Source: Actinacidiphila oryziradicis (GTDB lineage Bacteria; Actinomycetota; Actinomycetes; Streptomycetales; Streptomycetaceae). Taken from it: DNA of 64,000 nt. A program made the position numbers and the translations under genes. The stretch lies in contig NZ_SUMC01000006.1 in assembly GCF_005047355.1 (NCBI RefSeq), forward strand, positions 1 to 64,000, written 5' to 3'. This document shows positions 9,136 to 48,211 of the stretch, one piece after another; the stretch's first letter is position 1, and every line of letters begins with the position of its first letter. The notes beneath the pieces are model-generated. The model worked only from the letters and a program-made list of their open reading frames with translations, was not told the origin of the DNA and ran no database searches.

Positions 9136-9235
9136 GCCGCCCACTTCCTCCGCGGATCGATGATCTTCGGCCTCACCGAACTCTATGCCTGTACATAATG
9201 GAGCCGCTGCCCGCGTCCAGTAAGGAGCCCCCGGC

Positions 9236-10330
9236 ATGGCCGACGTCATCGTGAGCAATGTGCCCGGCTCGTTCCCCTGGGGTGTGCTGCACGAACGGCA
9301 TCCGGCCCTGATCGCACGAGTGCGTGATGCCACTCCCTACGGTCCCGGGCGGCGGGGAGCGCTGGACGCTCTGCTCGGGGAGATTGACGGGGCGATAGGG
9401 CCGCTGGCGCCGGGGGCCGCCGACCGGGGAGTGTGGGAGGCCTGGGGCAGCGAGAAGTACGTCGGCCGGCCGTGGGACGAGGTGCCGTTCCTGTGGGCGG
9501 AGAGCTACTTCTACCGCAGGCTGCTCGACGCGGTCGGGTACTTCGGGCCGGGCCCGTGGCGCGGCATCGATCCTTTCGCGCCCTTCAAGGCGGCCGAGCT
9601 GGACGGGCTGGCCCCGCCGGTGGCCGGTCTCGAGGAGCAGGCGCTGCTGCACGCCTCACTGTGGGGCAACCGGGCGGACCTGGGCTTCCGGATCTCCGCC
9701 GGGGAGGCGGGGCTCGGCGAGCGGGTGACGGGCCTGGTCGCGGACGACAGCGCCGGCCTGTGGGCGGTCCTGGACCGGGGCGCGCCGGGGAGGCTGTGCG
9801 TGGTGGCGGACAACGCCGGACCGGAACTGCTGCCGGACCTGCTGCTCGCCGACCAACTGCTGGCCGCGCACCGGGTGTCGGAGGTGCTGCTCCATGTGAA
9901 GCCGTATCCGTACTACGTGTCCGACGCCACGCCCGCCGATGTCATCGCTTGTCTGAGGCGGGCGGGAGAGGCGGGCAAGCGGCTGTGGCAGGCGATGGCC
10001 GACGGCCGCTTCATCGTCCGGGCCCACCCCTTCTCCTGTGCGCCGCTGCCGTACCAGGACATGCCCGACGACCTGCGCGCGGACTTCGGCTCGGCCACGC
10101 TCACGATCATGAAGGGTGATCTCAACTACCGTCGTCTGGTCTGCGACCGCCACTGGGCCGCCACCACGCCCTACGCGACCGTCACCGGCTACTTCCCGGG
10201 GCCGGTCGCCGCGCTGCGCACCCTCAAGTCCGAGGTGGTCGTCGGCCTCGACGAGGCGACCGTGGCCGCCCTGGACGCGGGCGGACAGTCCTGGCGCACC
10301 GCGGGCACCCACGCCCTGATCCAGGTCTGA
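9236..10330 (+). CDS. DUF89/ARMT1-family damage-control phosphatase
   Basis: A 364-residue protein starting at ATG 9236 with an AAGGAG site. Family motifs are VVADNAGPELLPDLLLADQL (the Asp/Asn metal site) and IMKGDLNYRRL. These mark the ARMT1-like domain, a metal-dependent phosphatase family acting on phosphometabolites. Cytoplasmic; the physiological substrate here is not predictable. It stands alone between a divergent SDR gene and a downstream GT39 gene. Confidence 0.85.
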   Translation: MADVIVSNVPGSFPWGVLHERHPALIARVRDATPYGPGRRGALDALLGEIDGAIGPLAPGAADRGVWEAWGSEKYVGRPWDEVPFLWAESYFYRRLLDAVGYFGPGPWRGIDPFAPFKAAELDGLAPPVAGLEEQALLHASLWGNRADLGFRISAGEAGLGERVTGLVADDSAGLWAVLDRGAPGRLCVVADNAGPELLPDLLLADQLLAAHRVSEVLLHVKPYPYYVSDATPADVIACLRRAGEAGKRLWQAMADGRFIVRAHPFSCAPLPYQDMPDDLRADFGSATLTIMKGDLNYRRLVCDRHWAATTPYATVTGYFPGPVAALRTLKSEVVVGLDEATVAALDAGGQSWRTAGTHALIQV

Positions 10331-32613: not shown

Positions 32614-34083
32614 CTACCAGGCCGCGGGCGCGTAGTCCTTCAGGAAGCAGCCGAAGAGGTCCTCGCCCAGCTCGCCGCGCACAATCGGGTCGTACACCCG
32701 CGCCGCCCCGTCAACCAGGTCCAGCGGGGCGTGGAACCCCTCCTCGGCGAGCCGCATCTTGTCGGGGTGCGGGCGCTCGTCGGTGATCCAGCCGGTGTCG
32801 ACGGCGGTCATGAGGATGCCGTCGGTCTCCAGCATCTCCTGGGCGCTGGTGCGGGTCAGCATGTTCAGCGCGGCCTTGGCCATGTTGGTGTGCGGATGGC
32901 CGGGGCCCTTGTAGCCACGGCTGAACTGGCCTTCCATGGCCGATACGTTGACGATGTACTTACGGCGGGCCGCAGCCGCCGCCATCGCCGGGCGCAACCG
33001 GCTGATCAGGATGAACGGCGCTGTCATGTTGCACAGCTGCACTTCGAGCAGCTCGACCGGATCGACCTGGTCGACCTTCTGGATCCAGCTGTTGACCGGG
33101 TCCAGGTCCGGGACCAGCCCGCCCGCGTCGATCGCCGTCCCCGCCTCGATCCGGGCCGGGGTGGCGGAGCCGCTGGTCAGCGCCAGGGCGGTGACGGCCT
33201 CCGGGGTGAGCGCGTCGTGCCGTCCCGACGCGGGGGCCGGGAGCACCGCCGGGACGCCGCTGCCGAAGTGGCCGAGTACGAGGGAGGCGGGCAGTTCCCC
33301 GGCGGGCAGCGGGGCGGACTCGGCGGCGACCAGCTCGCTGTAGGCCTGGGGGCTGCGGCGTACGGTCTGCGCGGCGTTGTTGATCAGGACGTCCAGCGGT
33401 CCCTCTGCGCTCACCGAGTCCGCCAGGGCGATCACCTGCGCCGGATCGCGCAGATCCATCCCGATGATCTTCAGCCGGTGCAGCCATTCCACGCTGTCCG
33501 GCATCGCGGTGAACCGGCGGACCGCGTCATTGGGGAAGCGGGTGGTGATCGTCGTATGCGCCCCGTCCCGCAGCAGCCGAAGCGCGATGTACATGCCGAT
33601 CTTCGCCCGCCCGCCGGTGAGCAGCGCACGCCTCCCGGTGAGATCGGTCCGCGCGTCGCGGCGGCCCCGGTTCTCCTTGGCGCACGGCGGGCACAGCTGG
33701 TGGTAGAACGCGTCCACCTCCACATACCGCGTCTTGCACGTGTAGCACGACCGCGGCCGCTCCAGGATCCCGGCGATCTCCGTCGCCACGGTCGCCGCGA
33801 GCTGGACGCCCATGGTCTCGTCGTCGATCCGGTCCGGTGCCCCGGTCGCGGTGGCCGCGGTCACCGCCCGGTCGTTGGCGGTCTTGGCGGCCCGGCGCTC
33901 CTGGCGGCGGCGGTGCTTGACCTCCCGGTAGATTCCGGCGGTGGCGCGGCGCACCGCGATCGCGTCCGGGTGGTCCAGCGGCAGATCGTCGAGCTCGGCG
34001 ATCACGCTCAGGCAGACCTCCAGCCGCGCCGGGTCGATGCCTGAGGTGATAGCCGTGCTGTTTTCGCTCGCTGTCGCGGTCAC
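32614..34083 (-). CDS. Zinc-ribbon-containing SDR oxidoreductase
   Basis: A 489-residue protein starting at GTG 34083. The N-terminal ~110 residues are helical. Then there is a treble-clef/zinc-ribbon motif, CYTCKTRYVEVDAFYHQLC with a second CPPC (C-x2-C and C-x2-C pairs) near residues 112-132. An SDR domain follows (LTGGRAKIGMYIALRL, DVLINNAAQT, NVSAMEGQFSRGYKG and HTNMAKAALNML). The catalytic Tyr falls in GYKG/HTNMAK-like surroundings, not the canonical YxxxK. A conserved actinobacterial protein of unknown substrate. It ends close to the repeat that follows the SWIM gene. Confidence 0.8.
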   Translation of the reverse strand: MTATASENSTAITSGIDPARLEVCLSVIAELDDLPLDHPDAIAVRRATAGIYREVKHRRRQERRAAKTANDRAVTAATATGAPDRIDDETMGVQLAATVATEIAGILERPRSCYTCKTRYVEVDAFYHQLCPPCAKENRGRRDARTDLTGRRALLTGGRAKIGMYIALRLLRDGAHTTITTRFPNDAVRRFTAMPDSVEWLHRLKIIGMDLRDPAQVIALADSVSAEGPLDVLINNAAQTVRRSPQAYSELVAAESAPLPAGELPASLVLGHFGSGVPAVLPAPASGRHDALTPEAVTALALTSGSATPARIEAGTAIDAGGLVPDLDPVNSWIQKVDQVDPVELLEVQLCNMTAPFILISRLRPAMAAAAARRKYIVNVSAMEGQFSRGYKGPGHPHTNMAKAALNMLTRTSAQEMLETDGILMTAVDTGWITDERPHPDKMRLAEEGFHAPLDLVDGAARVYDPIVRGELGEDLFGCFLKDYAPAAW

Positions 34084-34256
34084 TGTGCTGCCGATTCCTG
34101 GTGGTCTGTGCGCCTATGCTGCCGGGGGTTCCCGGCGGATTTTACGTTTACCGGGGTGCGACGGCCAAACCCGGCGGCGCCGCCCCGGACCGGCCGGATG
34201 ATCGGCAGGCGCAACAGAACACCGCACTGCCGGCCGATCCGGGTGACCATGGACTC

Positions 34257-35795
34257 ATGCTGCTGGCTGATATCGCCCGGACCTCCCGCGAGGTCGCGGC
34301 CACCCCTGCCCGTTCGGAGAAGATCGCCGCGCTCGCTCTGCTCTTCCGTCGGACGGAGCCCCACGAAGCACCCGTGGTGATCACCTACCTGGCGGGGCGC
34401 CTGCCACAGCGCCGTACCGGTGTCGGTTGGAGCACCCTGCGCGAGCACCGTGAGCCGGCGGCCGAGCCCGGGCTCACGGTCCTCGAGGTTCACGAGACCC
34501 TGGACCGTATCGCGGCTGTATCCGGCAAGGGCGCGGCCACCGAGCGGACCCGGCTGGTGGACGGGCTGATGACCGCGGCCACGGAGGAGGAGCAGCGTTT
34601 CCTCTTCGGGCTCATCGCCGGGGAGCTGCGGCAGGGGGCGCTGGACGCGCTCGCCATCGAGGGGCTGGCAGCCGCGACCGGCGCCGCCCCCGAGGATGTG
34701 CGGCGGGCCGTCATGCTGGGCGGTTCGCTCGGGGCCGTCGCGGAGGCGCTGCTCAGCTACGGGCCTGAGGCGCTGACCGGCTTCCGGCTGGAGGTGGGAA
34801 GGCCGGTGCTGCCCATGCTCGCGCAGAGCGCCAAGGATGTGGACGAGGCCCTGGACCAGCTCGGGCCCGGCGCTGTCGCGGTCGAGGAGAAGCTCGACGG
34901 GATCCGGGTGCAGGTGCACCGGGACGGCGACGACGTACGGATCTACACCCGCACCCTCGACGACATCACCGACCGGCTGCCGGAAGTCCTCGCGGCCGCC
35001 CGCGAGCTCTCCGTCGAGAGCGCGGTCCTGGACGGCGAGGTCATCGCCCTCGACACAGAGGGGCGCCCCCGCTCCTTCCAGGAGATCTCCTCCCGGGTCG
35101 GCTCCAGGCTCGACATCGCGGGCGCGCAGCAGACACTGCCGCTCTTCCCGGTCTTCTTCGACCTGCTCGCCGTCGACGGCCGGGACCTGCTCGCCCTCTC
35201 CACGCGCGAGCGTCACGCCGAGCTCGCCCGGGTCACGCCCGAGCCCCGGCGGGTACGCCGACTCGTCGCCGACGACCCCAACGACCCGGAGACCCGCCGG
35301 GCGGTGCGGGAGTTCGCCGCCGACGTGCTGGCCCGGGGCCACGAAGGCGTCGTGGTCAAGAGCCTGGACGCTCCCTACGGCGCCGGCCGGCGCGGCGCCT
35401 CCTGGATCAAGGTCAAGCCGGTTCACACCCTCGACCTTGTCGTACTCGCCGCCGAATGGGGCCACGGCCGCCGCACCGGCAAGCTTTCCAACCTCCACCT
35501 CGGCGCCCGGCGCCCCGACGGTACGTTCGCCATGCTCGGCAAGACCTTCAAGGGCCTCACGGACTCGCTGCTGGCCTGGCAGACCGAGCGGCTGCGGGAG
35601 CTCGCGGTCAGCGATGACGGCTGGCTGGTGCGTGTCCGGCCCGAGCTGGTGGTCGAGGTCGCCTTCGACGGCCTCCAGCGTTCCTCCCGCTACCCGGCGG
35701 GGGTGACCCTGCGGTTCGCGCGGGTGCTCCGCTACCGCGAGGACAAGACGGCGGGGGAGGCCGACACGGTCGAGACGGTGCTGGCGATGCGGTAG
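34257..35795 (+). CDS. lig: ATP-dependent DNA ligase (LigB/LigC-type)
   Basis: A 512-residue ligase starting at ATG 34257 (MLLADIARTSREV), where homology begins. The N-terminal DNA-binding helical domain is residues ~1-190. The nucleotidyltransferase core has adenylated Lys212 in EEKLDGIRVQ, then LDGEVIAL, FFDLLAVDG, HEGVVVKSLDAPY and WIKVKP. A C-terminal OB domain follows. It seals nicks using ATP, and archaeal-type enzymes of this size are accessory ligases in actinobacteria, distinct from NAD-dependent LigA. It is divergent from the SDR gene; no Ku or primase neighbours. Confidence 0.92.
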   Translation: MLLADIARTSREVAATPARSEKIAALALLFRRTEPHEAPVVITYLAGRLPQRRTGVGWSTLREHREPAAEPGLTVLEVHETLDRIAAVSGKGAATERTRLVDGLMTAATEEEQRFLFGLIAGELRQGALDALAIEGLAAATGAAPEDVRRAVMLGGSLGAVAEALLSYGPEALTGFRLEVGRPVLPMLAQSAKDVDEALDQLGPGAVAVEEKLDGIRVQVHRDGDDVRIYTRTLDDITDRLPEVLAAARELSVESAVLDGEVIALDTEGRPRSFQEISSRVGSRLDIAGAQQTLPLFPVFFDLLAVDGRDLLALSTRERHAELARVTPEPRRVRRLVADDPNDPETRRAVREFAADVLARGHEGVVVKSLDAPYGAGRRGASWIKVKPVHTLDLVVLAAEWGHGRRTGKLSNLHLGARRPDGTFAMLGKTFKGLTDSLLAWQTERLRELAVSDDGWLVRVRPELVVEVAFDGLQRSSRYPAGVTLRFARVLRYREDKTAGEADTVETVLAMR

Positions 35796-35816
35796 CCCGG
35801 TGTCGCCTGCGGTGCT

Positions 35817-35960
35817 GTCCCCTCCCCGCCCCTTCCCGAAACTGGGGGCTCCGCCCCCAGACCCCCTGTCCCAGGTTGTGGGCAGGCGTGCCGCAGGGCG
35901 ATGGGGGCACCTCCTGGGGGCACCTCCCGGCCGAAGGCTGGGGGAGGTAGCTGGGGGAGG
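35817..35960 (+). repeat. Modular intergenic repeat with terminator hairpin
   Basis: Between two convergent genes. A CTGGGGG-CTCCG-CCCCCAG hairpin (35842-35860) probably terminates both. It is followed by TTGTGGGCAGGCGT (35878), two GGGGGCACCTCC modules and CGGCCGAAGGCTGGGGG. Confidence 0.8.
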
Positions 35961-35997
35961 GCCAGGGGAAAGAGTCCGCCACAGGCGACCCCGGGGC

Positions 35998-37002
35998 TCA
36001 CCCCGTGAAGAGGCTCGCGTCGACCTGGTCGGCGACCTTGACATCGGTCGGCAGGGAACCGATGCCGTGCATGAGGTCGGCGACCGCCTGCACCTTGGTC
36101 ACGACGGCGGACGAGACCGGCAACGCCGTGGTGGCGCCCTGCGACACCACGGTGTCGGCCACTGCGGGGGCGACTCCGGTTGCCTTGGTGAACGCGGTCA
36201 CGTACGCGTCCTTGTTGGCCACGCTCCACCGCACCGCGCGGTCCAGGCGCTTCAGGACGTCCGCGATGGCGGCCTTCTTCGAGGGATCGGCGATCGACGA
36301 ACTCGCGGCGGAGACAAAGCCGAGCCCGCTGGTGCGGCCGTTCTGGCCGTCGACGATCTGACGTCCGCCGCCCGCCAGGGCGGTGGCCTGGTAGACGCCG
36401 AAGGTCGCCCAGTTCTGGATCTTCTGCGAGCTGAACGCGGCCTGCGCCGCCGTGGGCAGCACGTACTGCACCTTCACATCGGAGTACTTCAGCCCGGCCT
36501 GCTGCAGGGCGTTCGCCAGCAGATACTCCGCGATGCTGCCGCGCGCCGAGGAGACAACCACGTTCTTGCCCTTGAGGTCGGCGACGGTCTTCACGGACGA
36601 CCCCTTCTGGGTCAGGATGCCGGTGGACGCGCCGCTGGACTTCAGCGCCTCCACGAGTTTGATCTTCAGCCCGCCGGAGATCGCGGCCAGCGAGGGCAGG
36701 TCGGCCGCGTACCCGGTGTCCACATCGCCGCTCTGCATGGCCTGAAACAGCGGGGCGGCTCCCTCGAACTCGGCGAACTTCACCTTGTACGGCGTGCCCT
36801 TGAGGACCCCGGCGGCGCTGAACAGCGTCTTCAGGCTGTTGGCCTGGTCACCCAGGGTCAGGGTTATCCCGGAGAGGTCGGTGGCGGCGGCCTTGCCCGC
36901 GGTGGTGGTCTTCGCGGTGCCGTCGGAGCTGCCGCAGGCCGTCAGCAGCGCAGTGGCGGTGAGCACAGAGGCGGCGGACAGCAGGGCACGGCTGGGCTTC
37001 AT
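35998..37002 (-). CDS. SsuA-like substrate-binding lipoprotein (lone)
   Basis: A 334-residue exported lipoprotein (ATG 37002; signal MKPSRALLSAASVL, lipobox LLTAC). The mature chain is an aliphatic-sulfonate/taurine type periplasmic-binding fold: LTLGDQANSLKTLF, GAAPLFQAMQSGDVDTGYAA, LKGKNVVVSSARGSIAEYLL. No permease or ATPase follows; it is a single-gene unit behind its own leader peptide. It is paralogous to the protein at 43189-44217, and its promoter block matches that of the sulfur operon, so it probably feeds the SsuBC system across the LysR gene. Confidence 0.88.
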   Translation of the reverse strand: MKPSRALLSAASVLTATALLTACGSSDGTAKTTTAGKAAATDLSGITLTLGDQANSLKTLFSAAGVLKGTPYKVKFAEFEGAAPLFQAMQSGDVDTGYAADLPSLAAISGGLKIKLVEALKSSGASTGILTQKGSSVKTVADLKGKNVVVSSARGSIAEYLLANALQQAGLKYSDVKVQYVLPTAAQAAFSSQKIQNWATFGVYQATALAGGGRQIVDGQNGRTSGLGFVSAASSSIADPSKKAAIADVLKRLDRAVRWSVANKDAYVTAFTKATGVAPAVADTVVSQGATTALPVSSAVVTKVQAVADLMHGIGSLPTDVKVADQVDASLFTG

Positions 37003-37110
37003 GGGGCAGTCCTTGAGGGTGAGGGCACGCATGGGTGACGGCTCGTCAGGCACAGAGAACGCGGCGGGGGAACGGAAGGCGGCGCGCCGGATGTGAAGCG
37101 GGGAAGAGGC

Positions 37111-37227
37111 TCAGAGGCAGCGACAGCGCATGGCGCCGGCCAGGCCGAAGTCGACCACGCGTCGCTGCGTCAGTCGTCGGCCCATGGCGGGCGGCACCCA
37201 GGCCTCGACGACGACGGTTCGCAACAT
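37111..37227 (-). CDS. Cys-ended leader peptide upstream of the lone binding protein
   Basis: A 38-codon ORF, ATG 37227, begins MLRTV, contains LTQRRVVDFGL and ends MRCRCL. This matches the short actinobacterial leader peptides (LTxRRxVD...C) found before sulfur and cysteine genes, which are thought to sense cysteine by ribosome stalling at Cys codons. The start of the binding protein is 108 bp downstream. A sibling leader of the same design precedes the operon at 38616. The putative -10 lies only about six bases from the ATG, so translation may be leaderless. Confidence 0.75.
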   Translation of the reverse strand: MLRTVVVEAWVPPAMGRRLTQRRVVDFGLAGAMRCRCL

Positions 37228-37255
37228 GGGCCCAGCGTGACCGACCCGGTCTTGT

Positions 37256-37306
37256 ACGTCCAACGACGATTCGCGATCGGAATCGATCACGATCAGTGAT
37301 CGATGG
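37256..37306 (-). promoter_or_regulatory. Promoter/operator block shared with the operon at 38211
   Basis: Read on the minus strand, a 37-base core (from TCGTGATCG to GTTGGACGT) is identical at 31 positions to the block upstream of the divergent leader at 38294. It contains repeated GATC half-sites in an ATCGATCA/TGATCGAT arrangement, and TTGGAC as a possible -35. It is 28 bp from the leader ATG. Confidence 0.75.
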
Positions 37307-37321
37307 CTGTCGGGCGGCCCC

Positions 37322-38197
37322 TCAGGCAGCTGCCCGCGGCGCCGCCGGCTCGGCGAGCAGCGTCCGGACGGCGTCGATCGCGGTGGCCACCATGACGGGG
37401 TCGGCTCCCCGCCGGGCGTGGGCGCTCATCCGGATCGCCGGTACGGGGGGCAGGTCGCCGCGCTCGGTCAGGCCGTCGGGGCGCTGGCCGCCGACCGTGG
37501 CCAGCAGCGCGGCGCCCAGCCCGGCGCGGGCGGCGTCCAGGACGCCGGCGAGATAGCCGGCGTCGCATACGACGGTGGCGGCGATGCCGCGTTCGGCCAG
37601 GACGCTCAGGGCGCGGCGGCGGATCGCGCACGGGTCCTCGATGGCCACCAGCGGAAGCGGCGTGGGCGCCCCCGGCGGGGCCCAGCCCGGCGCGGCGTAC
37701 CAGTTCAGGGGGAGCCCGCCGACAGGTGTCCCCTCGGTGCCGGCGGCTTCGGTGACGTAGACCGCCAGATCCACCGTGCCCCGGTCCACCGCCTCCACCA
37801 GCCGCGCCGAGCGGTCGATCCGGAACCGTACCCGGCACTGCGGGCGCACTTCGCGTACGGCGGCGGTGAGCCGGGGCAGGATCTGGTCGGCGGCGTGTTC
37901 GGTCGAGCCGATGACGACAGTGTCGCCGTCATCGCCGAGCAGGGTGCGGACCGCCTCGTCATGTACGGCGATGACGCGCCGGGCCTGCTCCAGCAGCAGC
38001 GCCCCGTCGGAGGTGAACCGGGTCCGGCGGCCCTCGCGCTCGACCACCGGGCGGCCCAGGGTCTTCTCCAGCCGCCGCACATGCTGGCTGACCGCGGACT
38101 GGCTCAGCGCCAGCGCCTCGGCGGCACGGTGGAAACCGCCGCAGTCCGCGACCGCGATGAGGCTGCGCAGCGCCACAATGTCCAGTACGTGTGCCAT
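37322..38197 (-). CDS. LysR-family regulator of the sulfur locus
   Basis: A 291-residue LysR protein (ATG 38197). N-terminal winged HTH: LRSLIAVADCGGFHRAAEAL then LSQSAVSQHVRRLE. The effector domain contains LAVYVTEAAG. It lies exactly between the two matching promoter blocks, one facing each way, so it probably controls both the lone binding protein and the eight-gene operon as well as itself. The co-inducer is unknown, though CysB/Cbl-like sensing of a sulfur metabolite would fit. Confidence 0.88.
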   Translation of the reverse strand: MAHVLDIVALRSLIAVADCGGFHRAAEALALSQSAVSQHVRRLEKTLGRPVVEREGRRTRFTSDGALLLEQARRVIAVHDEAVRTLLGDDGDTVVIGSTEHAADQILPRLTAAVREVRPQCRVRFRIDRSARLVEAVDRGTVDLAVYVTEAAGTEGTPVGGLPLNWYAAPGWAPPGAPTPLPLVAIEDPCAIRRRALSVLAERGIAATVVCDAGYLAGVLDAARAGLGAALLATVGGQRPDGLTERGDLPPVPAIRMSAHARRGADPVMVATAIDAVRTLLAEPAAPRAAA

Positions 38198-38210
38198 GGC
38201 CGAACGTTAA

Positions 38211-38264
38211 CACCGATCAATCAGAAATCGTGATCGGTTTTGAGTGCGAATCGTTGTTGGACGT
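38211..38264 (+). promoter_or_regulatory. LysR-type operator and promoter of the organosulfur operon
   Basis: An inverted repeat ACCGATCA (38212-38219) and TGATCGGT (38231-38238) with an 11-base spacer fits a LysR T-N11-A box. It is followed by GCGAATCGTTGTTGGACGT, conserved with the block at 37256-37306. A TTGGAC (-35-like) and TCATCC (-10-like) 18 bases apart place transcription near the leader ATG at 38294. Confidence 0.75.
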
Positions 38265-38293
38265 GTGAGGTGCGCGTCAGTCATCCTGGGGCC

Positions 38294-38428
38294 ATGTTGC
38301 GAACAGTGCACGGGACGGCGGTCGCGCCGAATCCCATCGACGCCCAGCGGCGTGACGCCGCGGGCGCGCTGCTCACGCAACGCCGCGTGGTCGACTTCGG
38401 CCTCGTCAACAGCGCCTGTTGTCGCTGA
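38294..38428 (+). CDS. Cys-ended leader peptide upstream of the organosulfur operon
   Basis: A 44-codon ORF from ATG 38294 beginning MLRTV and ending LTQRRVVDFGL-VNSACCR, with tandem TGT Cys codons just before the stop. It shares MLRTV and LTQRRVVDFGL with the leader at 37111-37227. The 187 bp from its stop to the hydrolase ATG is GC-rich with no other gene and could hold the attenuator structure. Confidence 0.75.
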   Translation: MLRTVHGTAVAPNPIDAQRRDAAGALLTQRRVVDFGLVNSACCR

Positions 38429-38615
38429 CCCCGCTGCCGCCGGGCACACCGCGCCGACGCCCCTGCGACCTCCGGGGCCTCTGACACGAGCCCGGCCGGG
38501 CATGCCGCCATCGGGCCGTGCCCCGCTCTCCCTTCCCCACCCCCGACGCCGACCGCTGCGTGCCACCCGTGCCCGCGGCCCGGCAGTCGCTTCCTGCTTC
38601 CCGAGAAGAGGATCC

Positions 38616-39359
38616 ATGACCTCCTCCGACCCTGCCGTCCACGCCTGGGACGAACCCGAAGGACTGGCCCCACGGGGGACGGTGATCGTGCTGCCCGGGC
38701 GCGGCGAGCACGGCGGTGTCTACGAGCGGCTCGGCCGCCGGCTCGCTTTCGACGCCTACCGGGTACGGGTCCTCGGCGACGCCGTCCGCGACCCCGCGGT
38801 ACCCGAACTCGCCGCCAAACTGCTCCTCGACGAGGCGCTGGCCGGCCCGAAGGTCCTGGTCGGATCCGACACCGGCGCCCTCTACGCCGCTGCCCTCGCC
38901 TCCCAGGGCGCGCCCGGCCTCGACGCGGTGATCCTGGCCGGACTGCCCACGGCGACGGCCTCCGCGCCCGTCGTCGCTGCCGCGGACTGGGCGGCCGAGC
39001 TCGATCTGCGCACCGCCTGCCCGACCCACCGCGGCCGCCTCGACGCCGACCCCGGCGTCCACCGCGGCGACCTCACCGCACCGCTGCCGGACGCGCTGCC
39101 CGCCGCCGCCCTCGACCGCGTCACCGTTCCCGTGCTGGCCCTGCACGGCAGCGACGACGCCGTCAGCCCGCTGAACGCGGCCCGCCGCACGTACAACGGC
39201 TTCCCCGACGTCCAGCTGGTGAGCATCGCGGGGGGACGGCACGACGTACTCAACGACGTCACACACCGCACGGTCGCCGCCACCGTCGTCCTCTTCCTGG
39301 AACGGCTGCGGCTGTCGCCCGCGCTCCCCGCCATCGCTACCCCGGAGACCACCGAATGA
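38616..39359 (+). CDS. Alpha/beta hydrolase, first gene of the organosulfur operon
   Basis: A 247-residue protein, ATG 38616 after GAAGAGGA. A compact alpha/beta hydrolase: VIVLPGRGEHGGVYERLGRR, then the nucleophile position reads LVGSDTGALYA (GSDTG, Asp in place of Ser at the elbow centre). Acid LHGSDDAVSP and His in GGRHDVLND follow. An Asp nucleophile would suggest a dehalogenase/epoxide-hydrolase-like or non-esterase chemistry; this is inference. It overlaps the rhodanese gene by ATGA. Confidence 0.8.
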   Translation: MTSSDPAVHAWDEPEGLAPRGTVIVLPGRGEHGGVYERLGRRLAFDAYRVRVLGDAVRDPAVPELAAKLLLDEALAGPKVLVGSDTGALYAAALASQGAPGLDAVILAGLPTATASAPVVAAADWAAELDLRTACPTHRGRLDADPGVHRGDLTAPLPDALPAAALDRVTVPVLALHGSDDAVSPLNAARRTYNGFPDVQLVSIAGGRHDVLNDVTHRTVAATVVLFLERLRLSPALPAIATPETTE

Positions 39360-40204
39360 CCACCCGGATCACCACCACCGCCCTCGAACTGGACAGCCTG
39401 CTGCGCTCCGCCGCCCCGCCCGTGGTCCTCGACGTACGGTGGGCCCTCGGTGACCCGCACGGCCGCGACCACTACCGCGCCGGACACATCCCGGCCGCCG
39501 TGTACGCCGACCTCGACACCGAGCTCGCCGCCCCGCCCACGCCGGAAGGCGGCCGCCATCCGCTGCCCGGCGTCGCATCGCTGCAGGCGGCGGCCCGCCG
39601 CTGGGGCATCAGCGCCGGACGGCCGGTCGTGGTCTACGACAACAACGGCAACACCGCCGCCGCCCGTGCCTGGTGGCTGCTGCGCTGGGCCGGCGTCGAG
39701 GACGTAACGCTGCTCGACGGCGCGCTCGCCGCCTGGCGAACGGCGGGGCTGCCGCTGGAGACCGGCGAGAGCGTGCCCGCCGGCCCCGGGGACGTCACCC
39801 TCACCGGCGGCCGGCTGCCCACCCTCGACGCCGACGAGGCGGCCGAACTGGCCCGCAAGGGCACCCTGCTCGACGCCCGCGCCGCCGAGCGCTACCGGGG
39901 TGAGACCGAGCCCGTCGACCCCCGCGCCGGCCACATCCCCGGCGCCCTCTCCGCCCCGACCGGCGACAACCTCGCCCCCGACGGCACCTTCCTGCCGCCC
40001 GCCGAACTCCGCGCCCGCTTCGCCGCCCTGGGCGCCGACGGCTCCGCCCCGGTCGGCGTCTACTGCGGCTCCGGTGTGACCGCCGCCCACCAGGTCGCCG
40101 CCCTCGCCATCGCCGGCACCGACGCCGCCCTCTTCCCCGGCTCCTGGTCCGCCTGGTCCGCCGACGCCGCCCGCCCCGCCGCCACCGGCCACCAGCCGGG
40201 CTGA
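39356..40204 (+). CDS. sseA: Tandem-rhodanese sulfurtransferase
   Basis: A 282-residue protein with two rhodanese modules. The N-terminal one (VVLDVRWALGDPHGRDHYRA) lacks a Cys, while the C-terminal one carries the active loop YCGSGVTA with Cys237. CGSGVT is the 3-mercaptopyruvate/thiosulfate sulfurtransferase type. It transfers sulfane sulfur to thiol or cyanide acceptors in the cytoplasm. Placement with Ssu-type genes suggests handling of sulfur released from an organosulfur substrate. Confidence 0.9.
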   Translation: MTTRITTTALELDSLLRSAAPPVVLDVRWALGDPHGRDHYRAGHIPAAVYADLDTELAAPPTPEGGRHPLPGVASLQAAARRWGISAGRPVVVYDNNGNTAAARAWWLLRWAGVEDVTLLDGALAAWRTAGLPLETGESVPAGPGDVTLTGGRLPTLDADEAAELARKGTLLDARAAERYRGETEPVDPRAGHIPGALSAPTGDNLAPDGTFLPPAELRARFAALGADGSAPVGVYCGSGVTAAHQVAALAIAGTDAALFPGSWSAWSADAARPAATGHQPG

Positions 40205-40241
40205 CCGACGGCCCGCCGCACCCCGACCGAGAGGACCCCCG

Positions 40242-41231
40242 ATGTCAGTCCAGGAGCACGTCACCCCCGGCGCCGCACCGCCGGGCAACGCCGGCGAGCC
40301 CGCCGCCGGGCCGGAGCCGGGTGCCGGGCCGCAGGAGGCCGTCGCGGGGACGGCGGGGACGCGGGCCGGTGCCGCGGGTGCCGGCGCGGCCACGAGCGGT
40401 GCGGCGCCCACCGCCGCCCCCCGGCTCACCATCCGCCCCGCGCGGCAGGCCCGCCGCGGCTTCCGCGTGCCCAGGTCGGTGCGGCGCGCCAGCGGCCCCG
40501 TCGGGGTGCTGCTCGTCTGGTACCTCGCCGGCGTGAGCGGGCTACTGCCCACGAGCGTCCTGGCCTCGCCCGTCGACGTCCTGCGCCAGGCATGGGACCT
40601 CACCGCCAACGGACAGCTCCCGAGCGCCATCGTCGCCTCCGGGAAGCGGGCCGCGACCGGCTTCGCGATCGGCGCCGTGATCGCCCTCGTCCTCGCCCTC
40701 ACCGCAGGGCTGTTCCGGCTGGGCGAGGATGTCGTCGACTCCTCCATGGGCATGTTCCGGGCGATCCCCTGGGTCGGCCTGATCCCGCTGTTCATCGTCT
40801 GGTTCGGCATCGACGAGACCCCGAAGATCGCCCTGGTGGCGCTGGGAGTCACGTACCCCCTGTACTTCAACATCTACGGCGGCATCCGCTCCGCCGACTC
40901 CCAGCTCATCGAGGCCGCCCGGATGCTGGGGCTCGGCCGGATCGGGCTGATCCGCTACGTGATCCTGCCTTCCGCGCTCCCCGGTGCGCTCATCGGACTG
41001 CGCTACGCCCTCTCCACCGCCTGGCTGGCCCTGGTCTTCGCGGAGCAGGTCAACGCCAGCAACGGCATCGGCTACCTGATGAGCAACGCCCAGCAGTACT
41101 TCCGCACCGATGTGATCGTGCTCTGCCTCGCGGTCTACGCGATCCTCGGGCTGCTCTGCGACTTCGTGGTCCGGCTGCTCTCCAAACGCCTGCTGACCTG
41201 GCGGGCCTCCTTCGACGGCGACGGGGCGTGA
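40242..41231 (+). CDS. ssuC: Sulfonate-type ABC permease (SsuC-like)
   Basis: A 329-residue permease with an unusually long Ala/Gly/Pro-rich cytoplasmic N-terminus (~75 residues) before six TM segments. The EAA loop reads LIEAARMLGLGRIGLIRYV. It is in the BPD_transp_1 family of taurine/aliphatic-sulfonate/nitrate importers. It overlaps the ATPase gene by GTGA if that gene starts at 41228. Confidence 0.9.
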   Translation: MSVQEHVTPGAAPPGNAGEPAAGPEPGAGPQEAVAGTAGTRAGAAGAGAATSGAAPTAAPRLTIRPARQARRGFRVPRSVRRASGPVGVLLVWYLAGVSGLLPTSVLASPVDVLRQAWDLTANGQLPSAIVASGKRAATGFAIGAVIALVLALTAGLFRLGEDVVDSSMGMFRAIPWVGLIPLFIVWFGIDETPKIALVALGVTYPLYFNIYGGIRSADSQLIEAARMLGLGRIGLIRYVILPSALPGALIGLRYALSTAWLALVFAEQVNASNGIGYLMSNAQQYFRTDVIVLCLAVYAILGLLCDFVVRLLSKRLLTWRASFDGDGA

Positions 41232-42022
41232 CGACGCACATGAGTGAGCAGACCCTCAGCAAGACCACCCTGACCGAGACCAAGAACGCCAGTGTGGAGA
41301 TCCACGGCCTGAGCAGGGCCTTCGACGGCCGGACCGTCATCGACGCGCTCGACCTCACCATCGAGCAGGGCGAGTTCGTGGCGCTGCTCGGCCAGAGCGG
41401 CTGCGGCAAGAGCACCCTGCTGCGGATCCTCGCCGGGCTCGACGACGAGATCAGCGGCCAGGTCACCGTGCCGAGCCGCCGCTCGGCGGCGTTCCAGTCA
41501 CCCCGCCTCATGCCCTGGCTGAAGGTGTGGCGCAATGTCGTACTCGGCCTGCCCGGCAAGCCCGACCGGGCGCTGGCCACCCGCTACCTCGCCGAGGTCG
41601 GTATCGATCAGCGGGCCGGGGTGTGGCCCAAGACCCTCTCCGGCGGCGAGGCGCAGCGTGTCTCCCTCGCCAGGGCGCTGGTCCGCGAGCCCGAGCTGCT
41701 TCTCCTGGACGAGCCGTTCGGCGCCCTGGACGCGCTGACCCGGGTCAAGGCCCAGCGGCTGGTGGGGGAGCTGTGGCAGCGGCACGGCTGCTCGATCCTG
41801 CTGGTCACGCACGACGTCGAGGAGTCCCTGCTGCTCGCCGACCGGGTGCTGGTCATGGACGCGGGCGGCATCGCCCACGAAGTGACCGTCGACCTGCCCC
41901 GGCCCCGCGACATCGGCTCGCCCGAATTCGTCGCCATGCGCACCCAGTTGCTCGCCTGGCTCGGCGTGCACGACGCCGCAACCAACGCCGCACCCAACGT
42001 CGACGGCAACGCCGCCGCTTAG
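41228..42022 (+). CDS. ssuB: Sulfonate-type ABC ATPase (SsuB-like)
   Basis: A 264-residue ATPase with Walker A GQSGCGKST, Q-loop FQSPRLMPWL, signature LSGGEAQR, Walker B LLLLDEPFGALD and H-loop LLVTHDVEES. The start is GTG 41228 (overlap) or ATG 41240; the choice changes four residues. It energises SsuC-type import with one or both of the two binding lipoproteins. Confidence 0.9.
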   Translation: MTTHMSEQTLSKTTLTETKNASVEIHGLSRAFDGRTVIDALDLTIEQGEFVALLGQSGCGKSTLLRILAGLDDEISGQVTVPSRRSAAFQSPRLMPWLKVWRNVVLGLPGKPDRALATRYLAEVGIDQRAGVWPKTLSGGEAQRVSLARALVREPELLLLDEPFGALDALTRVKAQRLVGELWQRHGCSILLVTHDVEESLLLADRVLVMDAGGIAHEVTVDLPRPRDIGSPEFVAMRTQLLAWLGVHDAATNAAPNVDGNAAA

Positions 42023-42034
42023 GAGAACCCCGCC

Positions 42035-43144
42035 ATGCCTGTTGAGTTCATCAGCGCCATCCACCCCAACCGCGCCGCCGACGGCACCTCGACCTTCGGG
42101 GTGGGCATCGAACCCGATTTCGCCCGCCGCTTCGCCCGCGCCCTGGACGACGGAGGCTTCGACTACACGCTCGTCGCCTACCACTCCTCGTCCGCCGACG
42201 CGCTCCAGCTCGCCCAGTTCGTGGCCGCCAACACCGAACGTCTCAAGCCGATGCTCGCCCACCGCCCCGGCGTGATCTTCCCGACCCACGCCGCCCGCGC
42301 CTTCGCGACCCTCGACCGGATCAGCAACGGCCGGCTGTCCGTGCACATCATCTCCGGCGGCAGCGACCAGGAGCAGCGCCGCGAGGGCGACTACCTGAAC
42401 AAGAGCGAGCGCTACGAGCGGTCGGACGAGTACATCCAGATCCTCCGCAAGGTCTGGTCCGCCGACGGGCCCGTCTCCCACGAGGGCAAGCACTACCGTT
42501 TCGAGGACTTCGCCTCCGACGTGGCACCCGTCCACGGGACCATCCCGATCTCGGTCGGCGGCTCCTCCGCCGACGCCTACCGGGTCGGCGGGCAGCAGGG
42601 CGACATCTTCGGCCTGTGGGGCGAGCCGCTGAAGGAGACCGCCGAGCAGATCGCCTCCGTCAACGCCCACGCGGACGCCGCCGGGCGCCCCCGGCCCCGT
42701 ATCTGGGTGTCGTTCCGGCCCATCGTGGCCCCCACCGACGAACTGGCCTGGGAGAAGGCTCACCGCATCCTCGGAGAGATAACGCAGAAGAGCGCGCAGC
42801 GCGCCCAGAACAACCACGGTCACCACTACCCCGCTCCCGGCCAGGGCCGCCCCGCCAACGTCGGCTCCCAGCGGCTGCTGGAGGTCGCCGCCCGCGGTGA
42901 CCTGCACGACCGTGCCCTGTGGACGCCGCTGGCCACCGCCACCAATGCGGCCGGCAGCACCACCGCGCTCGTCGGCTCCCCGGAGACGGTGGCCGCCGCC
43001 CTGCTCGACTACGTCGACATCGGCTGCGAGCTGCTGTCCATCCGTGGCTTCGACCCGCTCAACGACGCCATCGACTACGCCCGCTACGTGCTGCCCCTGG
43101 TCCGCCAGGAGCTCGCCGCACGCGAGGCGAAGACCGCCGCCTGA
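42035..43144 (+). CDS. ssuD: LLM-class FMNH2-dependent monooxygenase (SsuD-like)
   Basis: A 369-residue luciferase-like flavin monooxygenase. Features: FISAIHPN at the N-terminus, the LKPMLAHRPGVIFPTHAAR loop, GRLSVHIISGGSDQEQ, and a FWSADGP-like FGLWGEP strand. It is close to alkanesulfonate monooxygenase SsuD, which cleaves C-S bonds to sulfite and an aldehyde. A NAD(P)H:FMN reductase (SsuE) is not in this operon and must come from elsewhere. Confidence 0.9.
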   Translation: MPVEFISAIHPNRAADGTSTFGVGIEPDFARRFARALDDGGFDYTLVAYHSSSADALQLAQFVAANTERLKPMLAHRPGVIFPTHAARAFATLDRISNGRLSVHIISGGSDQEQRREGDYLNKSERYERSDEYIQILRKVWSADGPVSHEGKHYRFEDFASDVAPVHGTIPISVGGSSADAYRVGGQQGDIFGLWGEPLKETAEQIASVNAHADAAGRPRPRIWVSFRPIVAPTDELAWEKAHRILGEITQKSAQRAQNNHGHHYPAPGQGRPANVGSQRLLEVAARGDLHDRALWTPLATATNAAGSTTALVGSPETVAAALLDYVDIGCELLSIRGFDPLNDAIDYARYVLPLVRQELAAREAKTAA

Positions 43145-43188
43145 CCCGCCTTCGCACCGCCCGCACACCTACCCTCGGGAGACCTGCC

Positions 43189-44217
43189 ATGTTCCGCGTC
43201 CGCAGACCGGCCCTGTCGGCGGCCACCGCCGCCACCCTGCTTCTCGCGCTCACTGCCTGCGGCGGTTCGGCCGGCGCCAAATCCTCGGCCTCCTCCGGAA
43301 GCTCGGACCTGTCCTCGGTCACCCTCGCCGTCGGGGACACCGGCTGGGCCCGCGCCCAGGCCGTACTGAAGCTGGCGGGCCTGGACAAGACGCCGTACAA
43401 GGTGAAGTGGAGCGTCTTCCAGGGCGGTGACCTGCAACTGCAGGCCGTACGGGCCGGCGCCCTCGACGTGGCCTCCTCCAGCGAGATCCCGCCGGTCTTC
43501 GCCGCCGCCGACGGCAACGCCAACTTCAAGGTGGTGGCCGTGCAGAAGGGCACCACCCTGCAGCAGGAGGTCGTCGCACCCAAGGGCTCGAAGATCACCA
43601 GCATGGCCCAGCTCAAGGGCAAGAAGGTCGGCTACGTCAAGAACACCACCGCCGAGTACTTCCTCTACGAGCTGCTGAAGCAGGCGGGTCTCAAGTGGTC
43701 CGACATCAAGGCCGTCCCGCTCCTCCCGGACGCCGGGCTCGCCGCCCTGAACGGCGGTTCCATCGACGCCCTCGCCTCCTACGGCAACTCGATCATCGCC
43801 GCACACGGGCAGGGCGCCACCACCATCGGCTCCGGCGCGGACATCCTCTCCGGCAACTTCAACTGGGAGGCCTCGGACAAGACCATCGCGAGCGCCGCCA
43901 AGCGCGCCGCCCTCGCCGACCTCCTCGCCCGGGTCAACAAGGGCTACGCGTACATCCGCAACGGCCACGAGACGGACTACGCCAAGGTGACCGCAACCAC
44001 CACCCACCAGTCGGTGAGCGAGGCGCTCAGCCAGTACAAGGCGGGCGAGCAGCAGCGGCCGACCACGATCGGCCTCACCACCAAGGCCGCCATCGTCTCC
44101 GAGCAGCAGGTCGCCGACGCCTTCGATGCGCTCGGCGCGCTCCCCAAGCACCTGGACGTCTCCACTTTCTGGACCGACGTTCTCAACTCCGACCTCCGCA
44201 AGGCCCTCGCCTCATGA
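43189..44217 (+). CDS. ssuA: SsuA-like substrate-binding lipoprotein
   Basis: A 342-residue exported lipoprotein starting at ATG 43189 (signal RPALSAATAATLLLAL, lipobox LTAC). The mature chain resembles aliphatic-sulfonate binding proteins: VTLAVGDTGWARAQAVLK, QLQAVRAGALDVASSSEIPP, LKGKKVGYVKNTTAEYFL. It is a paralogue of the protein at 35998-37002. It is fifth after the permease block and overlaps the dehydrogenase gene by ATGA. Confidence 0.9.
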   Translation: MFRVRRPALSAATAATLLLALTACGGSAGAKSSASSGSSDLSSVTLAVGDTGWARAQAVLKLAGLDKTPYKVKWSVFQGGDLQLQAVRAGALDVASSSEIPPVFAAADGNANFKVVAVQKGTTLQQEVVAPKGSKITSMAQLKGKKVGYVKNTTAEYFLYELLKQAGLKWSDIKAVPLLPDAGLAALNGGSIDALASYGNSIIAAHGQGATTIGSGADILSGNFNWEASDKTIASAAKRAALADLLARVNKGYAYIRNGHETDYAKVTATTTHQSVSEALSQYKAGEQQRPTTIGLTTKAAIVSEQQVADAFDALGALPKHLDVSTFWTDVLNSDLRKALAS

Positions 44218-45400
44218 CGACAACTCCCGTAGCGGTGAAGTTCCCCGTTCCCGACCTCAGGCGCCTCCCCGAGGTCACCAGCCAACTCGCCGCCACCGCC
44301 GAGACCTACGACCGCACCGCCGCCTTCCCCGCCGCCGGCATCCAGGCGGCCTACGACGCCGGGCTGCTCACCGCCACCGTCGGCAGCCAGTACGGCGGCC
44401 CCGGCCTGGGCATCAGCGACACCGCCCGAATCTTCGCCGCCCTCGGCGAAGGCGACCCGTCCACCGCCCTGATCGTCGCCATGACGCTCAACGTCCACAA
44501 CATGCAGGGCCGCCGGCCGCACTGGCCCGACCGCCTCTACTCGGAGGTGCTGGCCCGCTCCGCCGTGGGTCCCGCGCTGCTCAACCACGCCCGCGTAGAG
44601 CCCGACCTGGGGTCCCCGGCCCGGGGCGGCCTCCCCGCCACCACCGCCCGCCGCACCGCGGACGGCTGGGCCATCAGCGGCGCCAAGCGCTTCGTCACCG
44701 GTTCGGAGGGCCTGGCCTGGTACCTGGTGTGGGCCACCACCGATGAGCCCGAACCCCGTGTCGGCACCTTCGCCGTCCCCGGCGACGCCCCCGGCATCGA
44801 GATCACCCGCCGCTGGGACCACCTCGGCCTGCGGGCCAGCGGCAGCCACGACATCGCGTTCCACGACGTCGAGATCCCCGCCGACAGCATCATCAACGTC
44901 GCGGCCCAAGGCCCCGCCGCCGAACAGGACAACCGCGCCGGCGCCCTGCTCCACCTCCCCCTCGCCGCCCTCTACCTCGGTGTCGCCCGGGCCGCCCAGC
45001 AGTATTTCCACCGCTTCGCCCACGAACGGGTGCCCGCCAACCTCGGCCACCCCGTCGCCCGCACCGAACGCTTCCGCCAGGCCGCCGGCGAGATCCAGCT
45101 CCTGCTCGACAGCGCCGACCAGCTCATTCACGGCGGCGCCCAGCGCGCCGACCTCGGCGACCCCACCTACGCCCCCGAGCAGGCCCTCGCCGCCAAGATC
45201 CTCGCGACCCGGCACGCCACCACCGCCGTCCAGACCGCCCTCCGCCTCCTCGGCAACCCCGGCCTCACCCGCGACAACCCCCTGGAGCGCCACTTCCGCG
45301 ACATCCAGTGCGCCCCCGTCCACGCGCCCCAGGAGGACACCGCCCTGCTCGTCATCGGCACCTCCGCGCTCCGCGCGTGGGCGCAAGCCCAGGAGCCCGC

Positions 45401-45404
<4 letters not shown>
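44214..45404 (+). CDS. Acyl-CoA-dehydrogenase-fold flavoenzyme (SfnB/DszC-like)
   Basis: A 396-residue member of the ACAD superfamily: GLLTATVGSQYGGPGLGISD, the FAD/substrate strand AISGAKRFVTGSEGLAWYLV, and WDHLGLRASGSHDIAFHDVE. In sulfur-scavenging operons such proteins (SfnB, DszC, sulfone or sulfide monooxygenases) oxidise organosulfur compounds with reduced flavin; true acyl-CoA dehydrogenation is less likely here. It is coupled by overlap to both neighbours. Confidence 0.85.
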
Positions 45405-46801
<1,397 letters not shown>

Positions 46802-46810
46802 GCGGGCCGG

Positions 46811-46948
46811 TCAGGGCCGGTAGACCATTCCGGGCTCGGTCTTGGCCGGCGCCAGCAGCTGGGACACGGTGACGATGGTGTAGCCGCGCTTCTTCAGCCC
46901 GGCGATGATCGCCGACACCGCGGGCACGGTCCCGGAGGGGAACCTGAA
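46811..46948 (-). pseudogene. C-terminal scrap of a polysaccharide deacetylase
   Basis: About 45 residues read FRFPSGTVPAVSAIIAGLKK then RGYTIVTVSQLL and end VYRP, the usual last segment of NodB-type polysaccharide deacetylases. The catalytic N-terminal part is absent; the frame upstream is overlapped by another gene. A leftover 3' end. Confidence 0.55.
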
Positions 46949-46964
46949 TATGTACCGGGCCTGT

Positions 46965-47585
46965 TCAGCCGGCCAGCGCCGCGGTGGGAACCCCCCGGTC
47001 CGCCAGCAACGTACGCAGCCCGCCGGCCGGATCTCCGCCGTAGGCCACGCCCGTGGCCTCGGAGTCGCTGATGCGCACAGTGGGGTGCCAGCCGTGCTCG
47101 GGAGGAAGCAGGTCGGCCAGGGCGTCACGAAACGCACGCTGGCGATGACGCCCGCCACCGCCGGGGAACAAGGGCGGGCAGGCCGCCGCGAATTTTCCAC
47201 CGGGCTCACGTCCGGCCAGCGCCTGACAGCGGCCCGCCCATGCCTTGCGGTTGTAGCCCAGGGGCGTGGTTTCCGGGTAGTGGGCCAGGCTGATCGCTCT
47301 GGCGGTGGTGAAGTGCTGCCGTTCGTCGACTTCCAGCACCTGGTGACTGCCGTCGGCGTACGCCAGGACCACGTCCAGGCGCCGGCGTTCGCGCGGTGGG
47401 GAGAGTTCGGGCAGCTCAAGGTCGGTCAGGGCCGCGTAGATTCGGCTGATCGCCGACCACGCCCCTGCGCACTCGGCCTTGCCCGGGCGCAGCAGCCACT
47501 GCGGGCAACTCTCCGTCGCTACCTCGGCATCAACCACTTTCTGCAGGAGACGAGTGATCAACTCCTGCGGTCGTACTCCTGCCAT
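46965..47585 (-). CDS. Hypothetical protein, 206 aa
   Basis: ATG 47585 (MAGVRPQELITRLLQKVVD). A soluble protein with RRLDVVLAYADGSHQVLEVD followed by ERQHFTTARAISLAHY and LGYNRKAWAGRCQALAGREP. The D-x-x-L...EVD pattern looks like a PD-(D/E)XK-type nuclease core, an actinobacterial hypothetical of unknown role. The fold call is tentative. It is flanked by a remnant on its 3' side and another hypothetical upstream. Confidence 0.6.
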   Translation of the reverse strand: MAGVRPQELITRLLQKVVDAEVATESCPQWLLRPGKAECAGAWSAISRIYAALTDLELPELSPPRERRRLDVVLAYADGSHQVLEVDERQHFTTARAISLAHYPETTPLGYNRKAWAGRCQALAGREPGGKFAAACPPLFPGGGGRHRQRAFRDALADLLPPEHGWHPTVRISDSEATGVAYGGDPAGGLRTLLADRGVPTAALAG

Positions 47586-47716
47586 GTCCGCCTCCAGCGA
47601 TCAAGTTGTCCGTCGGGGCCAAACCCCAAGTAGAACAGGTCTTGTCCGCGGAGACGCTCCGGCCCGGCCGTACAACGCGTGGCGTATGCAACATCGGTGA
47701 ACGGCCGGACTCCGCC

Positions 47717-48211
47717 TCAGCCGGCCGTCCCCGCCGACCGTCCGGCCAGGGATGTGACAGGGGGCGTCGAATGTTCCATGGGTGACGCGGCGTGGCGTGC
47801 GCGTTCATCGCTGACGGCCGCGCTCGGCCATGAGTTGGCGGCCGTAGCGGAGGCGGGGGCTGATCCGCCTGTGTTCTGGACCGGCTGCCGGACCTGGTCG
47901 GAGGGCGGGCTGATGGTGAGAGGCCTGGGGGACGGTGCGATGGTCGCCTCGCTCCAGGATTTCGCCTGGGGCTCCGCGGGCGGGGCCACGGCGGCGGGCG
48001 CGGGCACGGGAGGTGCGGTGGGGGTGGACCAGCTGCGCAGGGCGTGGACCGCGGCCTCGTCGAGGCTGACGGGACGGTGCCGCTGAGCCGCCAGGCGGCC
48101 GGCCTCCCGGCCCAGGGCGCCGAGGTCTTCCCAGCTCAGTCGGAGCACCAGTTGGACTCCTGCCGCGCCGTCGGGCAGGGCCTGCAGGGTGAAGCTGTTC
48201 TGATCGCTCAT
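47717..48211 (-). CDS. Hypothetical protein with conserved N-terminal domain, 164 aa
   Basis: Start ATG 48211 (MSDQNSFTLQALPDG) after GAGGAT. The N-terminal ~60 residues are ordered (QLVLRLSWEDLGALGREAGR, PVSLDEAAVHALRSW); the rest is a disordered Ala/Pro/Ser tail. The domain resembles small helical binding domains seen in Streptomyces hypotheticals. No function assigned. The 349 bp upstream (48212-48560) contain no gene I can support. Confidence 0.5.
   Translation of the reverse strand: MSDQNSFTLQALPDGAAGVQLVLRLSWEDLGALGREAGRLAAQRHRPVSLDEAAVHALRSWSTPTAPPVPAPAAVAPPAEPQAKSWSEATIAPSPRPLTISPPSDQVRQPVQNTGGSAPASATAANSWPSAAVSDERARHAASPMEHSTPPVTSLAGRSAGTAG

Follow-up and report, generated by a model that had tools for sequence, protein, structure and literature searches.

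Two short reading frames with similar beginnings and similar ends lie on the two sides of a LysR-family regulator gene in the soil actinomycete Actinacidiphila oryziradicis. The question that this locus raises is whether they are copies of one cysteine-sensing control module and, if so, how such a module might act. The window is the whole stretch of DNA that was analysed, 64,000 nucleotides (contig NZ_SUMC01000006.1, positions 1 to 64,000). An earlier sequence-only reading had claimed that a pair of leaders with Cys-codon ends faces outward from the LysR gene, that each precedes a sulfur-acquisition unit, and that the pair is a duplicated attenuation module by which one regulator gene and two cysteine sensors coordinate a split regulon, with leaderless starts as a point to check. 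The features concerned were as follows.

35998..37002, minus strand: gene for SBP_A, an SsuA-like solute-binding lipoprotein, starting 108 nt past the leader A stop
37111..37227, minus strand: leader A, 38 codons, ATG start, register Cys codon TGT at 37123-37125
37228..37305, minus strand: putative promoter and operator-like DNA of leader A, GATC-rich, with GAATCGTCGTTGGAC at 37258-37272 and the hexamer CACGCT at 37234-37239
37322..38197, minus strand: LysR-family regulator gene (PF00126, 68.6 bits; PF03466, 69.8 bits; both over cut-off)
38215..38293, plus strand: putative promoter and operator-like DNA of leader B, with GATCA-N11-TGATC at 38215-38235, GAATCGTTGTTGGAC at 38248-38262 and the hexamer CATCCT at 38282-38287
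38294..38428, plus strand: leader B, 44 codons, register Cys codon TGT at 38420-38422
38429..38615, plus strand: C-rich stretch of 187 nt from the leader B stop to the first operon gene, a possible Rho-loading region
38616..39359, plus strand: alpha/beta hydrolase gene (PF12146 over cut-off)
39356..40204, plus strand: rhodanese/sulfurtransferase gene (PF00581 over cut-off)
40242..41231, plus strand: SsuC-like ABC permease gene (PF00528 over cut-off; PRK11365, 232.2 of 347 bits)
41240..42022, plus strand: SsuB-like ABC ATPase gene (PRK11247, 245.9 of 395 bits; the Pfam scan left out the ATPase)
42035..43144, plus strand: SsuD-like luciferase-type monooxygenase (LLM) gene (PF00296 over cut-off; TIGR03565, 198.8 of 518.2 bits)
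43189..44217, plus strand: gene for SBP_B, a second SsuA-like binding protein, 31% identical to SBP_A
44214..45404, plus strand: SfnB-like acyl-CoA dehydrogenase-fold gene (Acyl-CoA_dh Pfam domains over cut-off; SfnB, 100.7 of 430.9 bits)

The paired leaders and their upstream DNA

We found that the peptides of leader A (MLRTV...LTQRRVVDFGLAGAMRCRCL, C-terminal end CRCL) and leader B (MLRTV...LTQRRVVDFGLVNSACCR, C-terminal end ACCR) both begin with MLRTV and contain LTQRRVVDFGL close to the C-terminus, and that the two leaders are oriented outward with the LysR gene between them. BLASTP of one against the other gave E = 2e-09 in a single comparison. The best ungapped 33-nt match between the A and B flanks was 29/33, compared with a mean of 21.5 and a maximum of 26 in 500 block shuffles. 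Six codon differences were synonymous and none was non-synonymous in the 16 codons of MLRTV and LTQRRVVDFGL, a comparison that is descriptive, the segments having been chosen for matching. A TGT Cys codon stands nine residues after the Asp (Asp+9) in both leaders despite differing adjacent residues, and the longest Cys run in the window leaders does not exceed two.

On the 5' side of each leader ATG, TGATCG...GAATCGTNGTTGGAC comes first and then, 6 nt ahead of the start codon, a hexamer of the form xAxxxT. When A and B were aligned with 10 orthologous leaders, all 12 sequences had both this hexamer and the GTTGGAC box. The pattern GAATCGTNGTTGGAC-N20-32-ATG occurred at exactly 2 sites in the 11.5-Mb genome of the organism (389 contigs, estimated contamination 6.25%), and these were A and B; the reversed-pattern control gave 0 sites. 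Counting this genome, the pattern was present in 3 of 35 genus genomes. With up to two mismatches allowed, GAATCGTNGTTGGAC was found at two sites only in the window, both without mismatch; at the two-mismatch level, two sites were obtained in 3 of 100 shuffles.

Many spurious ORFs exist in this GC-rich window, and leaders A and B might be chance reading frames of this kind. The shuffle test, the restriction of the promoter box to two genome sites and the orthologous leaders in other genera all argue against that explanation, which we regard as wildly improbable. A chance likeness between A and B was likewise contradicted by the shuffles and by the two-only genome sites of the GAATCGTNGTTGGAC pattern. 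The claim of two leaders with shared segments and Cys-codon ends was confirmed by the sequence, the BLASTP comparison and the shuffle test.

Because a general scan found no sigma-70-consensus promoter, the promoter call rests on position and conservation. A leaderless transcription start at the leader AUG is probable. The hexamer 6 nt before the ATG and the GTTGGAC box in 12 of 12 sequences speak for this part of the sequence-only reading, and the absence of a sigma-70-consensus site speaks against it. The regulator is of LysR type, with both HTH_1 and LysR_substrate domains over cut-off, and its nearest solved relatives are LrhA. As for one regulator and a split regulon, the single LysR gene between two sulfur-type units stood, and, judging only from the copied DNA, LysR may act at both promoters.

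Both arms look sulfur-related, arm A being SsuA-like, with SBP_A as the only gene clearly assigned, and arm B resembling a sulfonate-type operon. In this sense each leader does precede a sulfur-type unit, as had been claimed, at scores below the NCBIfam cut-offs: the scanned Pfam domains were over cut-off, and all arm A and arm B matches to named NCBIfam models were below the curated cut-offs. Organosulfur scavenging and its substrates are putative because of these below-cut-off scores. A long ORF (window 45308-46801, plus strand) lies 3' of the acyl-CoA dehydrogenase gene and may share its operon.

The leader family and its register cysteine codon

Three NCBIfam models are related to these leaders, namely NF042934 (cis_reg_atten), NF042936 (leader_Ms4527A) and NF042933 (Ms5788A). 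Leader B scored 14.3 bits with NF042936, below its cut-off of 45 bits, and leader A had no match there; neither leader matched NF042934 (cut-off 27 bits) at E up to 1, and no NCBIfam model matched leader A. In the same genome, 9 leaders were over the NF042934 cut-off, and the A/B pair was not among the 21 matches listed. All 60 genomes that were sampled in the order had leaders over the NF042934 cut-off, as did at least 128 of 197 genomes of the class (at least 144 at E up to 0.001). None of 14 control genomes had a match over cut-off or at E up to 0.001, and 5-6 of them matched at E up to 1. The A/B pair shares the R-x-x-(V/I)-D...Cys tail layout of NF042934. By cut-off the two leaders are non-members, yet by their sequences they are clear relatives of the actinomycete cysteine-leader families NF042934 and NF042936, that is, a variant of a known leader kind. 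Elsewhere in the genome (G000:C344, L146), a stretch of about 11 kb holds three leaders that exceed the NF042934 cut-off, and one of them precedes a luciferase-like monooxygenase gene.

Cysteine-responsive attenuation by leaderless leaders in M. smegmatis is attributed to Canestrari 2020 by papers that cite it, and the accessible part of PMC4633059 (2015) describes leaderless Cys-rich uORFs in mycobacteria. The Ms5788A and Ms4527A leaders (NF042933, NF042936; Shell 2015, Canestrari 2020) resemble A and B in having Cys codons near the stop, a probable leaderless start, sulfur-type genes downstream and a related tail motif. In contrast to them, the window leaders have no Cys runs above two, score below the cut-offs and occur as two copies flanking a LysR gene. 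The accessible portion of PMC1262725 (2005) predicts Cys leaders in Mycobacterium, P. acnes and B. longum and suggests Rho. As in A and B, the Cys codons of these leaders are close to the stop and there is no obvious terminator; unlike A and B, its examples there precede cys operons and cbs, and no Streptomyces case is among them. Ribosome-mediated Cys attenuation is also predicted for uORFC-8-2 before cysS in Rhodobacterales, but the available part of that paper (PMC8632094) gives it a terminator-like stem with a U run and dominant UGC, unlike the near-fixed UGU of the A/B family. Eight S. lividans attenuators are listed in the part of PMC8079986 that could be consulted, none termed cysteine-dependent there. 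S. lividans metL, the metN leader, is listed in that part as methionine-dependent; it ends in GARCMCRRMCAF with three Cys codons and may sense cysteine. Measured against the functional class of cysteine-responsive leader ORFs, A and B have Cys codons close to the leader stop, and sulfur or cysteine genes lie downstream by assignments below the NCBIfam cut-offs. The two leaders are probably cysteine-sensing.

Leader tails were collected with a regex in which Arg was fixed, the Leu and Asp positions were restricted and the Asp-to-Cys distance was free. It returned 113 tails, from which the spurious L071 and L074 were dropped, leaving 111 distinct tails. A Cys stood at Asp+9 in 110 of the 111, encoded by TGT in 109 and by TGC in 1 (core RRHVDLRRIASAV). 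The other Cys codons of the 111 tails were TGC (89) and TGT (14), and those of eleven window ORFs taken as genes were TGC (18) and TGT (1). Since many of the sequences are related and many were found by a protein HMM that includes this Cys, the spacing counts are not independent; the choice between TGT and TGC is unaffected by a protein HMM. With one tail per distinct 13-residue core, TGT was present in 63 of 64. A subset of 27 of the 111 tails came from LysR-linked loci or loci of related operons that had been collected without using the family HMM, and every one of these had TGT. Among the 27 class-wide loci (L239-L265), L249 was unscored, being absent from the expected place, and the 26 scored tails all had TGT, with TGC 55 and TGT 21 at their other Cys codons. 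Six poly-Cys tails from mycobacterium-like genomes had TGT at Asp+9 as well, with varying neighbouring Cys codons.

In the 64 cores, the other motif codons and the third positions nearby broadly followed window codon usage, and the base after the register TGT was C or T in 97%. Two tight ortholog groups showed less variation at synonymous sites than usage predicts, at many sites. In 110 tails, the median distance between the register Cys and the stop was 3 codons. One tRNA-Cys gene was found, with anticodon GCA; the same pattern would catch an ACA form, and none was found, so UGU would be wobble-read. The anticodon loop of this tRNA is CTGCAAA, and a MiaB gene is present. A slow codon near the stop would be a sensible stall site. 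The literature that we searched did not mention a fixed UGU for leaders of this kind, though Canestrari 2020 could do so, and the fixed Asp+9 register with a near-fixed rare codon TGT across the family, as read from these tails, is apparently new.

Distribution of the layout and history of the SsuA-like gene

LysR relatives were fetched with their flanks (80 kept of 161), the window genes were mapped on them, and stretches of other genus genomes were added. By motif scan, a leader of the A/B type adjoined LysR in 20 of the 80 loci, including 10/10 from Streptomyces/Actinacidiphila and 10/10 from Pseudonocardia; the scan found none beside LysR in the other 60 (including Actinoplanes relatives, Saccharopolyspora and Mycobacterium). 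Leaders on both sides of LysR were present in only 1 of 80 loci, that of Pseudonocardia sp. MH-G8 (L050), where they precede a luciferase-like monooxygenase and a hydrolase relative. In L148 (about 9052-10132) and L194 (4614-5894), pairs of leaders point outward to divergent units with no LysR in between; one unit has a luciferase-like monooxygenase and the other a transporter gene. In L195 (about 5859-8322), leaders flank a stretch with a small gene that by eye resembles an Rrf2-type regulator. Some 180 nt ahead of LysR, the mycobacterial LysR loci (L056-L088) have short ORFs, possible leaders, that end in WTCRACR or a similar sequence and mostly use TGC for Cys.

The SBP_A relative lies inside operon B, between the ATPase and LLM genes, in 10 of 10 comparable relatives, that is, close ones with enough sequence (L009-L014, L016, L017, L033, L142). 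In the window, 12 nt separate the ATPase gene from the LLM gene, and SBP_A lies across LysR. A more distant relative, G021 (L150), likewise has no SBP_A in its operon. In the tree, the window SBP_A grouped with the SBP of a related operon type from five other genus genomes (100/100), apart from the in-operon gene of the nearest operon relatives; the window LLM was 85-86% identical to those of L142, L009 and L033 and 72-75% identical to the rest. SBP_A is therefore probably not the SsuA-like gene of the operon in a new place; the SBP_A tree, set against LLM identity, contradicted such a plain move. The GAATCGTNGTTGGAC-N20-32-ATG pattern was absent from the five related-operon-type genomes, and the control module therefore looks local. 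Judging from these comparisons, a related SsuA-type gene seems to have come under a duplicate of the local B module, and the SsuA-like gene of the operon itself seems to have been lost. The LysR relative of Actinacidiphila soli (L033, 9001-9760) matches in two segments that overlap, as would be expected from a frame disruption or a sequencing mistake.

Possible mechanism and its rivals

In 36900-38700 there were 0 terminator-like sites, and in 33000-48000 there were 0 Rfam matches up to E = 1; a classical attenuator with an intrinsic terminator and a known RNA family were thus ruled out as candidates. With a ribosome placed on the Cys codon, predicted Shine-Dalgarno exposure rose clearly in 1 of 10 leaders and slightly in 3, stayed the same in 4 and fell in 2. 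The idea of a duplicated attenuation module stood as far as operator-like DNA, promoter and leader are duplicated; its attenuation part found no terminator, Rfam match or consistent Shine-Dalgarno masking to stand on. The C-G skew of the 100 nt past the leader was 0.22 in 64 leaders (A 0.37, B 0.22) versus 0.11 in 110 control flanks (P = 3e-5), one locus being present in duplicate among the controls (as L033 and L144, which are identical DNA). This modest C-skew difference weakly fits a Rho site, and for the downstream step we lean toward Rho over translational control.

The explanation that we propose, with moderate confidence for the whole, is a two-armed sulfur-scavenging regulon with one LysR, a duplicated leader module, a UGU sensor and the SsuA-type gene history given above. 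Each arm would start with the same module of LysR-type operator DNA, promoter and short leader ORF, and the transcript probably begins at the leader AUG. The leader ORF would hold the critical Cys codon close to its stop, and we favour this single cysteine codon as the sensor, perhaps assisted by the nascent chain: one register UGU, probably wobble-read by tRNA-Cys (GCA), with a conserved peptide before it that may aid the stall. When charged Cys-tRNA is ample, the ribosome would complete the leader and depart, the C-rich stretch (108 nt in A, 187 nt in B) would be exposed, and downstream expression would stay low, most likely by Rho-dependent termination. The second module copy would date from when the SsuA-type gene of a related operon type came across LysR under the copied B module, with loss of the SsuA-like gene that the operon had itself. 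In E. coli tnaC, too, a ribosome halted close to the end of the leader could cover a Rho site, but tnaC senses free tryptophan through an arrest peptide, and A and B are known from sequence alone.

Other explanations need to be weighed against this model, and some concern the step that follows the stall. In translational attenuation, RNA pairing would hide the downstream ribosome-binding site until a stalled ribosome frees it. This is reported for mycobacterial cysteine genes of M. smegmatis in the accessible literature, and the absence of a terminator-like site in 36900-38700 is in keeping with it, but predicted Shine-Dalgarno exposure showed no consistent rise in the 10 leaders, thermodynamic folding alone being a weak test; we hold it as a possible, somewhat doubtful alternative. 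Rather unlikely, though it may act together with the favoured model, is arrest by the nascent chain. Here the tail L-x-x-R-x-x-(V/I)-D would exert its effect from within the ribosome tunnel, and the UGU-Cys step would be a point of arrest modulated by Cys-tRNA and not simply a codon at which starvation makes the ribosome wait. The constant distance of 9 between Asp and Cys (110 of 111 tails), which the regex left free, points this way, as do motif residues common to unlike cores whose codons mostly follow ordinary usage. From the geometry of the ribosome tunnel, the motif would sit about 8-13 residues from the peptidyl-transferase centre. Nevertheless, the invariance of Arg, Leu and Asp partly reflects how the tails were chosen, because the regex fixed or limited these positions, and the low synonymous variation in the two tight ortholog groups permits constraint at the nucleotide level.

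The codon itself might be kept for RNA pairing or as a nucleic-acid motif and not for decoding, and the C or T that follows TGT in nearly all cores would suit this idea. Changing T to C at the register TGT, however, shifted predicted folding by a mean of -0.30 kcal/mol (63 leaders) versus -0.04 kcal/mol for 252 control T to C changes, and it destabilised the fold in 30% versus 35% of cases. Base pairing as the reason for TGT was contradicted by this comparison, and with nearby third positions also following usage we consider a pairing or motif role to be quite unlikely. Finally, LysR alone could govern both arms, the leaders being conserved by descent with no sensing role; operator-like DNA was copied along with the leaders, and 60 of 80 LysR-relative loci lack such a leader by scan. 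Against it, both copies and the family at large retain the peptide motif, the Cys spacing and the TGT, and LysR control by itself is very unlikely in our estimation.

A gene apart from the operon carries a copy of the whole control module (operator-like DNA, promoter and leader), which hints at what makes up the functional unit. The TGT-at-Asp+9 rule would give the loosely defined Cys-rich leaders of Actinomycetes a sharp and testable signature. Such a signature would help annotation, and it raises the question of why a single synonymous codon should be almost invariant at a position that senses. Together, the copied arrangement and the nearly invariant rare Cys codon make the mechanism easier to test. 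A bolder conjecture, which we think unlikely, is that the family as a whole, of which this locus would be a natural duplicate, is a single-codon, nascent-chain-assisted sulfur sensor and not a codon-run attenuator, with the peptide at a fixed tunnel distance when UGU is in the A site. The tRNA modification ms2i6A37 contains sulfur and has a role in decoding, and UGU decoding could depend on tRNA-Cys charging and possibly on this modification. If that were true, tRNA thiolation as well as cysteine supply would be coupled to sulfur scavenging.
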